Shown: positions 25,733 to 34,553 of the stretch, in pieces
How the letters are laid out: each line of letters opens with the position of its first letter
Numbering within the stretch: the first letter of the stretch is position 1
NCBI GenBank assembly: GCA_035620395.1
Contig: DASPGW010000182.1
Span: 1-40,791, forward strand
Source of the DNA: Desulfuromonadales bacterium
GTDB taxonomy: Bacteria; Desulfobacterota; Desulfuromonadia; Desulfuromonadales; DASPGW01
Direction of reading: 5' to 3'
Length of the DNA stretch: 40,791 nt
Program-made: the position numbers and the translations under genes
The notes under the pieces: model-generated
The model's database searches: none
What the model was told of the DNA's origin: nothing
What the model saw: the letters and a program-made list of their open reading frames with translations, nothing else

Positions 25733-25761
25733 TTGACATTCGGCGGGGGGTGTGATAGCAA
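25733..25761 (+). promoter_or_regulatory. Upstream promoter (P1) of the ATP synthase operon
   Basis: TTGACA (25733-25738), a 17-nt spacer and TAGCAA (25756-25761). An A-run (25715-25729) just upstream could act as an UP element. Confidence 0.5.
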
Positions 25762-25770
25762 TTCCCTGTT

Positions 25771-25798
25771 TTGCCCGCCGCCAAGGGCACATTTTAAT
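25771..25798 (+). promoter_or_regulatory. Possible downstream promoter (P2) of the ATP synthase operon
   Basis: TTGCCC (25771-25776), a 16-nt spacer and TTTAAT (25793-25798). The predicted start near 25806 would place the GTATAC palindrome at about +5 to +20, a repressing position. Confidence 0.4.
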
Positions 25799-25810
25799 CT
25801 TCGGAAAATA

Positions 25811-25825
25811 TGTATACAGTATACG
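25811..25825. promoter_or_regulatory. GntR-type operator in the ATP synthase leader
   Basis: TGTATACAGTATACG repeats, with a single change at the last base, the palindrome at 33781-33795 in the promoter of the GntR gene that starts at 33843. It lies 54 nt upstream of atpF'. The most likely ligand is that regulator; direct evidence is lacking. Confidence 0.65.
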
Positions 25826-25878
25826 CATCCGGAAGTCAGGTTGCGGAACGTTTGTAGCGCTTTCAACGAGGTGTGGCA

Positions 25879-26304
25879 GTGATTAAGATCGATTGGACAA
25901 TACTACTGCAAGCGGCCAACTTCATGGTGCTGATGCTGGTCCTCAACATCATCCTTTACCGGCCTCTGCGCGACCTTTTGAATCGGCGCCGCGAGAGTGT
26001 TAACGGTGCCCACAGCCGGGCCCGTGAGCTGGAGGCACAGATTGCCGAGAAGATGAACCGTTACCAGGAGCAACTGCAGCAGGCCAAACTCAAGGGAAAC
26101 GAGGAGAAGGCAGCCCTGCGTGCCGCCGCCGCCCGGGAGGAGGCCGAACTGCTGGCAACAGCCCATCACAGTGGCAGCGAGCAGCTGCAGACCATCAAAA
26201 AAAGGGTGCAGGCGGAAGCGGCGGCGGCTCGGATGTCGCTCAAGGTCGAAACCGAGGCTCTTGCCGCTCACGTTGCCACCAAGGTTCTGGGGAGGGCCCT
26301 TTAA
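25879..26304 (+). CDS. atpX: ATP synthase F0 subunit b' (AtpF', AtpX)
   Basis: Subunit b' forms one half of the peripheral stalk that holds F1 still against the turning rotor. The 141-residue protein has one N-terminal membrane helix (about 4-25) and a long charged coiled coil. The start is GTG 25879, with GAGG 7 nt upstream; GTG 25873 is two codons earlier but too close to that site. It opens the operon and its stop touches the earliest possible atpF start (TAATG). The presence of both b' and b is known from photosynthetic bacteria and several Deltaproteobacteria. Confidence 0.9.
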   Translation: MIKIDWTILLQAANFMVLMLVLNIILYRPLRDLLNRRRESVNGAHSRARELEAQIAEKMNRYQEQLQQAKLKGNEEKAALRAAAAREEAELLATAHHSGSEQLQTIKKRVQAEAAAARMSLKVETEALAAHVATKVLGRAL

Positions 26305-31857: not shown

Positions 31858-31898
31858 AAATAAAGAAAGGCGGCCTGCTGGGCCGCCTTTCTTTATTT
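31858..31898. terminator. Strong bidirectional terminator between atpC and the GntR gene
   Basis: An 18-bp perfect stem (AAATAAAGAAAGGCGGCC with its complement, loop TGCTG) is flanked by A-rich and T-rich sides. It can end the atp operon on plus and the convergent GntR gene on minus, whose stop codon lies inside it. Confidence 0.95.
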
Positions 31899-32645
31899 GG
31901 ATGGCACAGCTGATGTCCGCTCAGCTTCGCGCTCCTGAAGAATCTGCGGCATCTTCTCTTGCACGAATTGCAGATGATCCATCATCGCCTGCCGGGCCTG
32001 CTCCGGGTTGCGGTCGCTGATTGCCTCGAAAATCGACCTGTGTTGGGCAAGCAGAGCCTCCAGATAGCCTTCGCGCCGGTAGAATTCGGTCAGGGCCAGT
32101 TCGATAGTGGCGTGAAACAGGCCGCGGATGGTGTCGAGCACATGCAGTTGCAGAGTGTTATGGGTCGCCGTGGTGATGGTGTAATGAAATTGGGCGTCCA
32201 CCTTGGGATCCCAGCCGCCGCGGGCAGCCTGGCGTTCCATTTCCTTGAGCAGTTTGGCCAAGGTGTCAATTTCCTCTTGGGTGGCACGGCTTGCGGCCAG
32301 AAAAGCAGCCCAGCTCTCGATACCCATGCGCACTTCGACCAAAGCCTGCAAGAGGAGGGGATCTTTCTCCACCATGGTCGTCAGGGGGTCGGCCAAAACG
32401 GTCTCGGTCAGCGAGCGGACGTAGGTGCCCCCCCCTTGCCGTGATTCGAGCAGCCCCATGGCTTCAAGAACCATAATTGCTTCACGGACGGACGGACGGC
32501 TGACCCCAAGCAGCGTAGCCAGATCGCGCTCCGAGGGGATACGCTCACCGGGTTTGAGTTGGCCCTTGGAAATGAGGACCTTGATTTGCTCGACAATCTC
32601 CTCGGAGATTTTCTTGGGGCGAATCGGTTTGAATACTATGGTCAT
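31893..32645 (-). CDS. GntR-family regulator, FadR/FCD subfamily (first of two)
   Basis: This 250-residue protein has an N-terminal winged helix-turn-helix (about 12-75, with IPSERDLATLLGVSRPSVREAIMVLEAMGLLESRQGGG) and a C-terminal all-helical FCD ligand domain (about 90-235). Members such as PdhR, LldR and GlcC sense carboxylic acids, so a small organic acid is a likely effector here, though which one cannot be read from sequence. ATG 32645 has GGAG 8 nt upstream. The promoter overlaps the stop codon of the isomerase gene, and an ATTGG/CCAAT palindrome next to the -10 suggests autorepression. It is convergent with the atp operon. Confidence 0.9.
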   Translation of the reverse strand: MTIVFKPIRPKKISEEIVEQIKVLISKGQLKPGERIPSERDLATLLGVSRPSVREAIMVLEAMGLLESRQGGGTYVRSLTETVLADPLTTMVEKDPLLLQALVEVRMGIESWAAFLAASRATQEEIDTLAKLLKEMERQAARGGWDPKVDAQFHYTITTATHNTLQLHVLDTIRGLFHATIELALTEFYRREGYLEALLAQHRSIFEAISDRNPEQARQAMMDHLQFVQEKMPQILQEREAERTSAVPSK

Positions 32646-32665: not shown

Positions 32666-32708
32666 ATTGGTATGGCCAATTTCTAGCATGGACGGCGGTA
32701 AAGGTCAA
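32666..32708 (-). promoter_or_regulatory. Promoter and putative operator of the first GntR gene
   Basis: On the minus strand TTGACC (32708-32703), a 17-nt spacer and TAGAAA (32685-32680) form the promoter. Directly downstream, ATTGG-N5-CCAAT (32680-32666) is a perfect 5-bp-arm palindrome. It resembles FadR-type operators (TGGTNNNACCA) except for one base, and sits where a bound repressor would block initiation. Confidence 0.6.
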
Positions 32709-33538
32709 GAGGGGGACGGAGGGAAATCCGCACTAGCTGCGGGCATAAGATGGGGGCAGAGGCCACTCATCGAGCGCAACAGCGCTTCCTGACTGTGTGC
32801 CTCAAGCGCCATCGTCGGCTGCTGCGGCAGAGTGGAAACCAGGGAGAACAGAGAGGCAAAATCTATCCTCCCTTCTCCCACCGGAAGGTGCTCATCGTAC
32901 TTGCCAAAGTTATCGTGCAGATGCAGGTGCGAGAGGCGTGGGCCGAGAGCGGCAAACCACTCGGCCAGAGAAACTTCGGCGAAAAGGTGCCAATGGCCGA
33001 TGTCGAAGCAGTGCCCCAACAGCGGGGAGTCTAGGCTGTCGAGCAGGGTGACCAGGGTTTCGGCTCTGGCCTCGAATACATTCTCAAGGACCATCCTGCA
33101 GCCGGCTTGCGCGGCCTGCTCAAGCAGGGGGGGCCAGAAAAGCTGACTCTGTTCCAGCCAGAGATGGTCCTGGCCACCATATTTCCAGGAATCATAGCCG
33201 GGATGGAAGACTAGCAGTCGGGCTCCAAGAGCCTGGGCCGCATTGATGCTCTGTGCAAAACGGTGTCGGGTTGCCGCGAAAACCAGAGGCTCCAGGGCTC
33301 CGGGGTTGAGATCCATGAACGGTGCGTGAACAGTGCAGGCGAGGCCGGCAGCCGCCAGCTGGCGGCCGGTATGGCGCAAGGAATCCCAAGACAGTTGGTC
33401 AAGGTCTGAACCCTTGAAGGCGATTTCAGGCTGCAGCCGATGCTCGAGCAAAAAGGGAACAGTGGCCTCGAGTTGTCGGTACGGCACATGGACATGCAGA
33501 AGCTTGCATCGACTGGCGAGCTCGTTTACCAAAGGCAT
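32705..33538 (-). CDS. TIM-barrel sugar-phosphate isomerase/epimerase-like protein
   Basis: This 277-residue protein belongs to the xylose isomerase-like / AP endonuclease 2 TIM-barrel family. Metal and active-site candidates are spread as usual: His71 (VHAP), His112 (FHPG), Glu152 (LENV), Asp179 and His182 (FDIGHWH), His206/His208 (HLHDN), His217 (HLPVGEG) and Glu246 (LEAHS). The family includes sugar isomerases, inosose dehydratases and DNA repair enzymes; the substrate is not known. ATG 33538 directly abuts AGGAG, so a TTG two codons later (33532) may be the real start. It lies upstream of a GntR regulator gene on the same strand, which may control or be linked to it. Confidence 0.85.
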   Translation of the reverse strand: MPLVNELASRCKLLHVHVPYRQLEATVPFLLEHRLQPEIAFKGSDLDQLSWDSLRHTGRQLAAAGLACTVHAPFMDLNPGALEPLVFAATRHRFAQSINAAQALGARLLVFHPGYDSWKYGGQDHLWLEQSQLFWPPLLEQAAQAGCRMVLENVFEARAETLVTLLDSLDSPLLGHCFDIGHWHLFAEVSLAEWFAALGPRLSHLHLHDNFGKYDEHLPVGEGRIDFASLFSLVSTLPQQPTMALEAHSQEALLRSMSGLCPHLMPAASADFPPSPS

Positions 33539-33735: not shown

Positions 33736-33822
33736 ATGAGTTGGGGTCTTTTCCGTAAGGAGAAAAGGCTTGACATTGCATGTATACAGTATACAATAAA
33801 TACTGTATACAGTCTACATTAG
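33736..33822 (+). CDS. Possible 28-residue leader peptide across the second GntR promoter
   Basis: An ATG at 33736 has an excellent ribosome site (AAGGAG, 5-nt spacing) and opens a 28-codon frame (MSWGLFRKEKRLDIA...) that ends at TAG just before the GntR gene. It runs through the promoter and both operators of that gene, so it could be made only from a transcript starting further upstream. No family resemblance. It may be chance. Confidence 0.2.
   Translation: MSWGLFRKEKRLDIACIQYTINTVYSLH
33770..33797 (+). promoter_or_regulatory. Promoter of the second GntR gene
   Basis: TTGACA (33770-33775), a 16-nt spacer and TACAAT (33792-33797): a near-consensus, probably strong promoter. The spacer is filled by the first operator and the start point lies at the second, so it should be tightly repressible. 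Confidence 0.75.
33781..33795. promoter_or_regulatory. GntR operator O1
   Basis: TGTATACAGTATACA, a perfect 15-bp palindrome, lies between the -35 and -10 of the regulator's own promoter. Same motif as 25811-25825 at the atp operon. Confidence 0.75.
33804..33818. promoter_or_regulatory. GntR operator O2
   Basis: TGTATACAGTCTACA differs from O1 at one base. Its centre is 23 nt (about two helical turns) from that of O1, on the same face of DNA, and covers the predicted transcription start. Confidence 0.7.
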
Positions 33823-33842: not shown

Positions 33843-34553
33843 GTGAGAAGAAAACCGATCGAAAGACACCAAACGCTGCGGGAAAAGATCCTGGAGACGA
33901 TTCGCGAGGCGATCCTCAAAGGGGCACTCAAGCCCGGAGAGAAAGTGGCGGAACCGGAACTTGCCGAACGCTTCGGCATCAGTCGGACGCCGATCCGGGA
34001 AGCTTTCCGACAGCTCGAATCGGAAGGGTATTTGACCGTAATCCCGCGCAAGGGTGCTGTGGTCACTTCCCTCTCCGAACGTGACGTGGCGGAATTCTAT
34101 TCCATCAAGAGCATCCTTGAGGGTTATGCCGCGCGCATTGCTACGGAGAGGCTGAGCGACAAGGAGATCGAACGCCTGGAGGCGATCAACGACAGGCTGG
34201 AGCAGTTGGCCCGGGAAGGGGACGTCAAGACCTTCTTTCGCGTTCACAACGAGTTTCACGAGCTCTTCATAAAAGCCGCTGGTAACGAAAAGCTCTATGA
34301 ACTGATCAGCCATCTGATGATGAAGTTCAACAGGCCCCGGATGGCTTCTCTTTCCCTGCCGGGCAGGATGGAGATCTCCGTACAGGAACACCGCAAGATC
34401 ATCGAGGCCTTCAAGGGCAAGGACGGAGAGAAGGCCGACAATCTGGTGCGCAAGACTGCCGCCTACGGTGGCCAGGTCCTGATCCAGAGCATTGCCCAGG
34501 AAGAAGGCAGACGTGTGGAAAAATCGATACTGCAAAGGGTGGTTGATGTCTGA
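33843..34553 (+). CDS. GntR-family regulator with FCD domain (second), probable ATP synthase regulator
   Basis: This 236-residue protein has an N-terminal winged helix-turn-helix (about 10-72, with LAERFGISRTPIREAFRQLESEGYL) and an FCD ligand domain with metal-site-like histidines in VHNEFHELFIKAAGNEKL and SVQEHRKIIEAF. The start is GTG 33843, chosen for GGAG 6 nt upstream; ATGs at 33825 and 33831 have no ribosome site and 33831 itself forms part of GGAG. Two TGTATACA-type operators lie in its promoter, indicating autoregulation, and a third near-identical site lies in the atp operon leader, so it may control ATP synthase. The effector is unknown. A terminator follows. Confidence 0.9.
   Translation: MRRKPIERHQTLREKILETIREAILKGALKPGEKVAEPELAERFGISRTPIREAFRQLESEGYLTVIPRKGAVVTSLSERDVAEFYSIKSILEGYAARIATERLSDKEIERLEAINDRLEQLAREGDVKTFFRVHNEFHELFIKAAGNEKLYELISHLMMKFNRPRMASLSLPGRMEISVQEHRKIIEAFKGKDGEKADNLVRKTAAYGGQVLIQSIAQEEGRRVEKSILQRVVDV

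Follow-up and report, generated by a model that had tools for sequence, protein, structure and literature searches.

A conserved predicted operator points to a GntR-family regulator of ATP synthase, the citric acid cycle and respiratory complexes in Desulfuromonadales and Geobacter

The ATP synthase operon of a Desulfuromonadales bacterium, found in a stretch of 40,791 nucleotides that was analysed as a whole (the window), carries in the leader of its first gene, atpX, a palindrome that recurs at the promoter of a GntR-family gene downstream. This raises the question of whether the operon answers to a transcription factor and, if so, to which one and together with which other genes. A sequence-only reading had proposed a repressor dedicated to ATP synthase. 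Our comparison of this genome with its relatives points, with a probability that we would put at roughly 0.8, to the palindrome being the operator of the FCD-domain GntR protein encoded from position 33843 (gntR), which would regulate its own gene and control a regulon of central energy metabolism.

The copies in the atpX leader and in the gntR promoter (Table 1) differ at a single base, as had been noticed at first reading. Allowing up to three mismatches, the palindrome gave eight strand-matches in the window, against 0.17 expected from shuffled sequences, and all eight were confined to these two regions; the copy in the atpX leader is far from chance. The second element that had been described as common to both promoters, TTGACATT, is indeed present at 25733-25740 and 33770-33777 but amounts to a canonical -35 box, and its extra TT is uninformative because relatives keep only TTGACA. 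The gene order also needs a correction, since the regulator is the third gene past the operon and not the second: atpC is followed by another FCD GntR gene, a TIM-barrel gene and then gntR.

Table 1. Features of the atpX leader, the gntR promoter and the adjoining genes in the window.
Feature	Position	Strand	Remark
-35 TTGACA, atpX promoter	25733..25738	+	conserved in most of about 50 relatives
-10 region TAGCAAT, preceded by TGTGA	25756..25762	+	conserved in the same comparison as the -35
Terminator-like hairpin TGCCC..GGGCA, then CATTTTAATC	25772..25789	+	just past the inferred transcription start
Putative GntR operator TGTATACAGTATACG, atpX leader	25811..25825	+	same place in 32/41 promoters with the regulator, 0/10 without
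atpX, ATP synthase b' subunit, first gene of the atp operon	25879..26304	+	Pfam PF00430
Second FCD GntR, LldR/PdhR-like, nearest gene past atpC	31893..32645	-	no close orthologue in G041 or Geobacter sp. AOG1
TIM-barrel gene	32705-33538	-	between the second GntR and the GntR of 33843
-35 TTGACA, gntR promoter	33770..33775	+	TTGACA-16-TACAAT, 11/12
Putative autoregulatory operator TGTATACAGTATACA, -35/-10 spacer and -10 of gntR	33781..33795	+	same geometry in 6/7 genomes compared
Second putative gntR operator TGTATACAGTCTACA	33804..33818	+	conservation in relatives not clear
GntR-family regulator with FCD domain, predicted master regulator	33843..34553	+	Pfam PF00392 + PF07729

Over the 3.3-Mb assembly, matches with at most three mismatches numbered 18 on the forward and 20 on the reverse strand, where the reversed pattern gave 4 and 6. 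With target genes named by Pfam and tblastn, sites with at most two mismatches outside the window were found to precede the genes of isocitrate dehydrogenase (L002), citrate synthase (L012) and aconitase B (L013), nuoA (L008, overlapping L010), sdhC (L009, succinate dehydrogenase cytochrome b-like), a second ATP synthase cluster, atpI-atpB (L007), glyQ (L003) and an oxidoreductase with Fer4_20, Pyr_redox_2 and NADH_4Fe-4S domains (L004) that we take to be SfrB-like. A pyruvate:ferredoxin oxidoreductase gene (L018) has a three-mismatch site upstream. Two others of this class, one inside a ribosomal protein gene (L014) and one with no fitting gene downstream (L016), look like chance. The site in the atpX leader is one of about ten genome-wide, covering citric acid cycle genes, complex I, succinate dehydrogenase and both ATP synthase clusters, and a switch dedicated to ATP synthase can be set aside. 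The predicted operator in front of glyQ (glycyl-tRNA synthetase) is odd for an energy regulon; it was seen in seven genomes (L003:1501-1515, and also L192, L214, L219, L238, L365 and L371).

The same set of sites is found in relatives that carry the regulator. Searching with GTATACAGTATAC and at most one mismatch, we found 8-13 distinct sites per genome in six regulator-carrying genomes (the Desulfuromonadales G012, G019, G033, G041 and G013, and Geobacter sp. AOG1, G058), while the control gave 0-1 per strand and three genomes without the regulator (G001, G003 and G023) had 0-1 matches. Nine further regulator-carrying genomes keep sites, and nine without it have 0-2 matches. The recurrent targets, assigned by tblastn, are gltA, acnB, idh, nuoA, sdhC, the sfrB-like gene, glyQ, atpX, atpI/B and gntR, in subsets that vary: all eight sites of G012 precede a regulon gene by tblastn, and those of Geobacter sp. 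AOG1 stand at gltA, acnB, idh, nuoA, sdhC, atpX and gntR. In G041 one site precedes a gene that reads as malate dehydrogenase (L228) and another a gene that reads as rnfC (L237), both names coming from reading of the sequence with no family search. In G019 a multihaem-cytochrome-like gene near atpB is preceded by a perfect site (L217:4364-4376).

At atpX itself we compared 51 upstream regions with enough sequence, allowing one mismatch in the core. Where the genome has the regulator, 32 of 41 promoters carry the site, 44-74 bp upstream of the gene; where no copy of the regulator was detected, none of the 10 does (Fisher p = 7e-6, with phylogeny ignored and counts that are not phylogenetically independent). 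The 32 sites comprise 28 exact and four near-exact copies of the 13-bp core, kept at one place in many families. The sequence-only reading had regarded absence of the atpX site from close relatives that keep the regulator as evidence against its proposal. Such absences do occur, in 9 of the 41 cases, but they are mostly losses at the level of clades from the atpX promoter, and other regulon sites persist there.

Regulator and sites are missing together in the genomes of f2 genus g2, f4 and f7. Citrate synthase is 61-86% identical in f2 and f4, both without regulator or sites, and distant or missing in f7; the persistence of the enzyme in f2 and f4 speaks against loss of the regulator tracking loss of citrate synthase, and indicates that cells can do without the regulator while keeping the enzyme. 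Exceptions of the opposite kind are G062, of the family of Geobacter sp. AOG1, where sites are kept and no regulator orthologue was detected, and the only two f9 genomes that a wider look yielded, G008 and G028, with six to seven sites each and again no orthologue detected. Absence from f9 does not follow, because the contigs (L378:1-245 in G008:C37, and G028:C124:1-178) end about 200 bp past the second GntR gene, where the regulator would be expected. The autoregulatory site and the strong co-occurrence across genomes argue, as first proposed, for a real operator with the GntR of 33843 as by far the best candidate to bind this GTATAC-type palindrome. In Geobacter the gene is flanked by a channel gene and one that reads as selA, away from the atp operon, so the link between regulator and sites is independent of neighbourhood.

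A rival candidate is the second FCD GntR, which could bind the operator alone or as well. It adjoins the atp operon in G000, G012, G019 and G013, and the f9 genomes, which yielded no copy of the first GntR, keep it along with the other regulon sites. Nevertheless, nothing in G041 matches it at E <= 1e-30 and the relative in Geobacter sp. AOG1 is only 41% identical, yet both genomes have the site set; conversely, the f2 genomes G001, G021 and G034 carry a 39% relative and zero sites, G028 has the gene beside an atp operon that lacks the atpX site, and its own upstream region in the window is without a copy of the palindrome. We consider this alternative very improbable and favour the GntR of 33843, because genomes without the second GntR carry the same sites.

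The favoured protein has an N-terminal GntR winged helix (PF00392, 69.6 bits against a cut-off of 27) and a C-terminal FCD domain (PF07729, 95.1 bits against 24.3), and its predicted model is all-helical from residue 79 (mean pLDDT 85). Orthologues are 66-90% identical across the order Desulfuromonadales and Geobacter. In the metal site of the FCD domain H139 and H183 are invariant across them, the usual Asp is replaced by an invariant H135 and the last His by T or N at position 205 (T205 in the window protein), a pattern that would be compatible with a three-His metal site. The nearest solved structure is PmiR of Pseudomonas aeruginosa (PDB 7xp0, 7xp1), also a GntR protein with an FCD domain; it is found by sequence at E 1.2e-31 and ranks first by fold (7xp0) with 35% identity, although two of the four metal ligands are changed here (D to H135 and H to T205).

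A second rival is suggested by the published targets of HgtR (GSU3364). In Geobacter sulfurreducens this protein exerts global control of energy generation, acting as a repressor at gltA, at nuoA and at the atp operon gene for the b' subunit (PMC7726332, PMC7894505). The palindrome could then be the site of HgtR or of a relative, and Geobacter sp. AOG1 does have palindromes at all three of its targets, gltA, nuoA and atpG (F0 b' subunit, atpX here; PMC7726332). Against this, the published description of the GSU3364 locus places the gene of an enhancer-binding protein upstream and predicts an RpoN promoter (PMC2725144), and gene context makes HgtR a much smaller protein, whereas gntR in the window has a TTGACA-16-TACAAT promoter and no enhancer-binding-protein neighbour. 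In Geobacter the gene upstream of the GntR orthologues is mostly a channel or TIM-barrel gene, and no sigma-54-like site was found near them in the 16-kb regions scanned. HgtR being the GntR of 33843 itself is contradicted by this context. Several Geobacter relatives have a gene for a ribbon-helix-helix-like protein of about 60 residues, with a sigma-54-like promoter, between an enhancer-binding-protein gene and cysS, presumably the neighbour of GSU3364 (L302:679-864; also L335, L336, L340, L342 and L343). This small gene, to which the description of GSU3364 fits, is likely the published HgtR; it lies 13-15 kb from the GntR gene in Geobacter genomes, and no close relative of it was found in Desulfuromonadales (40-44% over about 50 residues at best), where the palindromes are nonetheless present. 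Ownership of the palindrome by HgtR thus seems very improbable to us.

HgtR, as a published repressor of the atp operon, already means that control of ATP synthase by a transcription factor is not unprecedented, and the earlier statement that such operons are usually constitutive or growth-rate controlled, which would make this control unusual, was too strong. Another precedent is CceR of Rhodobacter sphaeroides, a LacI-type regulator. Its targets include enzymes of the citric acid cycle as well as NADH dehydrogenase and ATP synthase (PMC11323563), the same combination that is joined here by sites only, but it belongs to another protein family than the one that Pfam assigns here (GntR/FCD) and acts as an alphaproteobacterial switch between glycolysis and gluconeogenesis. 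A further precedent for joint control of the cycle, complex I and ATP synthase is RedB of Rhodobacter capsulatus, which limits ATP and NADH production and represses atpH directly (PMC9603517); it differs in being a CRP/FNR-family protein, also alphaproteobacterial, with hundreds of genes under it. In the literature searched, which leaves most subscription journals outside, we found no description of the regulon of the 33843 GntR, nothing on the motif together with a GntR protein and no matching description of Geobacter GntR regulons.

The promoter of atpX is itself well conserved, with TTGACA-N17-18-TAGC(A/T)AT kept in most of about 50 relatives, although a mechanical consensus scan gave no match at the -10 region (25756..25762). 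Just downstream, 31 of 47 leaders have a hairpin followed by a T run at or below -4 kcal/mol (mean -5.9 against -1.8 in shuffles; 25772-25799 in the window, T run included), with stems that differ between leaders. It may be a promoter-proximal attenuator or a 5'-stabilising stem. We rejected a second promoter near the operator (TTGCCC and TTTAAT), the spacing of which varies among relatives; the hairpin and T run fit this sequence. That the atp operon is governed mainly by this hairpin or is constitutive, the palindrome having little weight, is the reading to which we give the least chance: promoter and hairpin are indeed conserved in clades where the operator is lost (e.g., G041, G051 and G054), but the 13-bp core would not be expected to survive in so many leaders at one place without selection, and in the window genome both ATP synthase clusters carry the palindrome.

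The operator core begins 74-83 bp past the start of the atpX -35 in most relatives, which would place it roughly at +40 to +55 of the transcript if the start predicted from the promoter is correct. The placing of the site in the leader stands, but it lies about 50 bp past this start, whereas the gntR site covers the promoter. The start codon of atpX is more likely the GTG at 25879 than a start at 25873, a GTGAT start being conserved.

For each target the position of the site relative to the promoter is nearly fixed across genomes. At gntR, acnB and idh it lies between or on the -35 and -10, and at glyQ, the sfrB-like gene and atpI/B just past the -10, geometries that would all be repressive. 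At gltA and nuoA, in nearly all genomes, it lies 9-12 bp upstream of the -35, where either activation or hindrance of an upstream element is possible. The direction of control may differ by target since the geometry differs between promoters. We infer that the GntR of 33843 would repress its own gene by sitting on the -35/-10 spacer and the -10 of the gntR promoter, and that it would bind in the atpX leader most likely as a repressor or roadblock, with which the position in the transcript is compatible. Its predicted regulon comprises citrate synthase, aconitase B, isocitrate dehydrogenase, succinate dehydrogenase, complex I, the SfrB-like NAD(P)H oxidoreductase and both ATP synthase clusters. 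The FCD domain would sense a metabolite of acetate or citric acid cycle metabolism, the binding of which would lift repression. The atypical metal-site residues do not let the effector be read from the sequence; a tricarboxylate such as citrate or isocitrate is a speculative first guess, made because PmiR, the nearest solved relative, is presented in the title of its paper as a sensor of 2-methylisocitrate levels.

The group of Desulfuromonadales and Geobacter drives metal reduction and current production, and little is known about how these bacteria balance carbon oxidation against ATP synthesis. One conserved predicted operator at cycle enzymes, complex I and both ATP synthase clusters offers a ready handle on energy control: one protein, one motif and one deletion strain. 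Across this group of sediment bacteria, ATP synthase, the citric acid cycle and the respiratory complexes appear to share one GntR protein as their regulator. In Geobacter this would complicate the HgtR picture, because two regulators would apparently meet at the same promoters. More tentatively, and at somewhat less than even odds, the protein may be a master switch of oxidative energy metabolism in Desulfuromonadia including Geobacter, by which one metabolite signal would match the synthesis of ATP synthase and complex I to the flux through the citric acid cycle, mostly by repression and by activation at gltA and nuoA, converging with HgtR in Geobacter. If true, the FCD GntR proteins would extend from local catabolic switches to the control of core energy metabolism.
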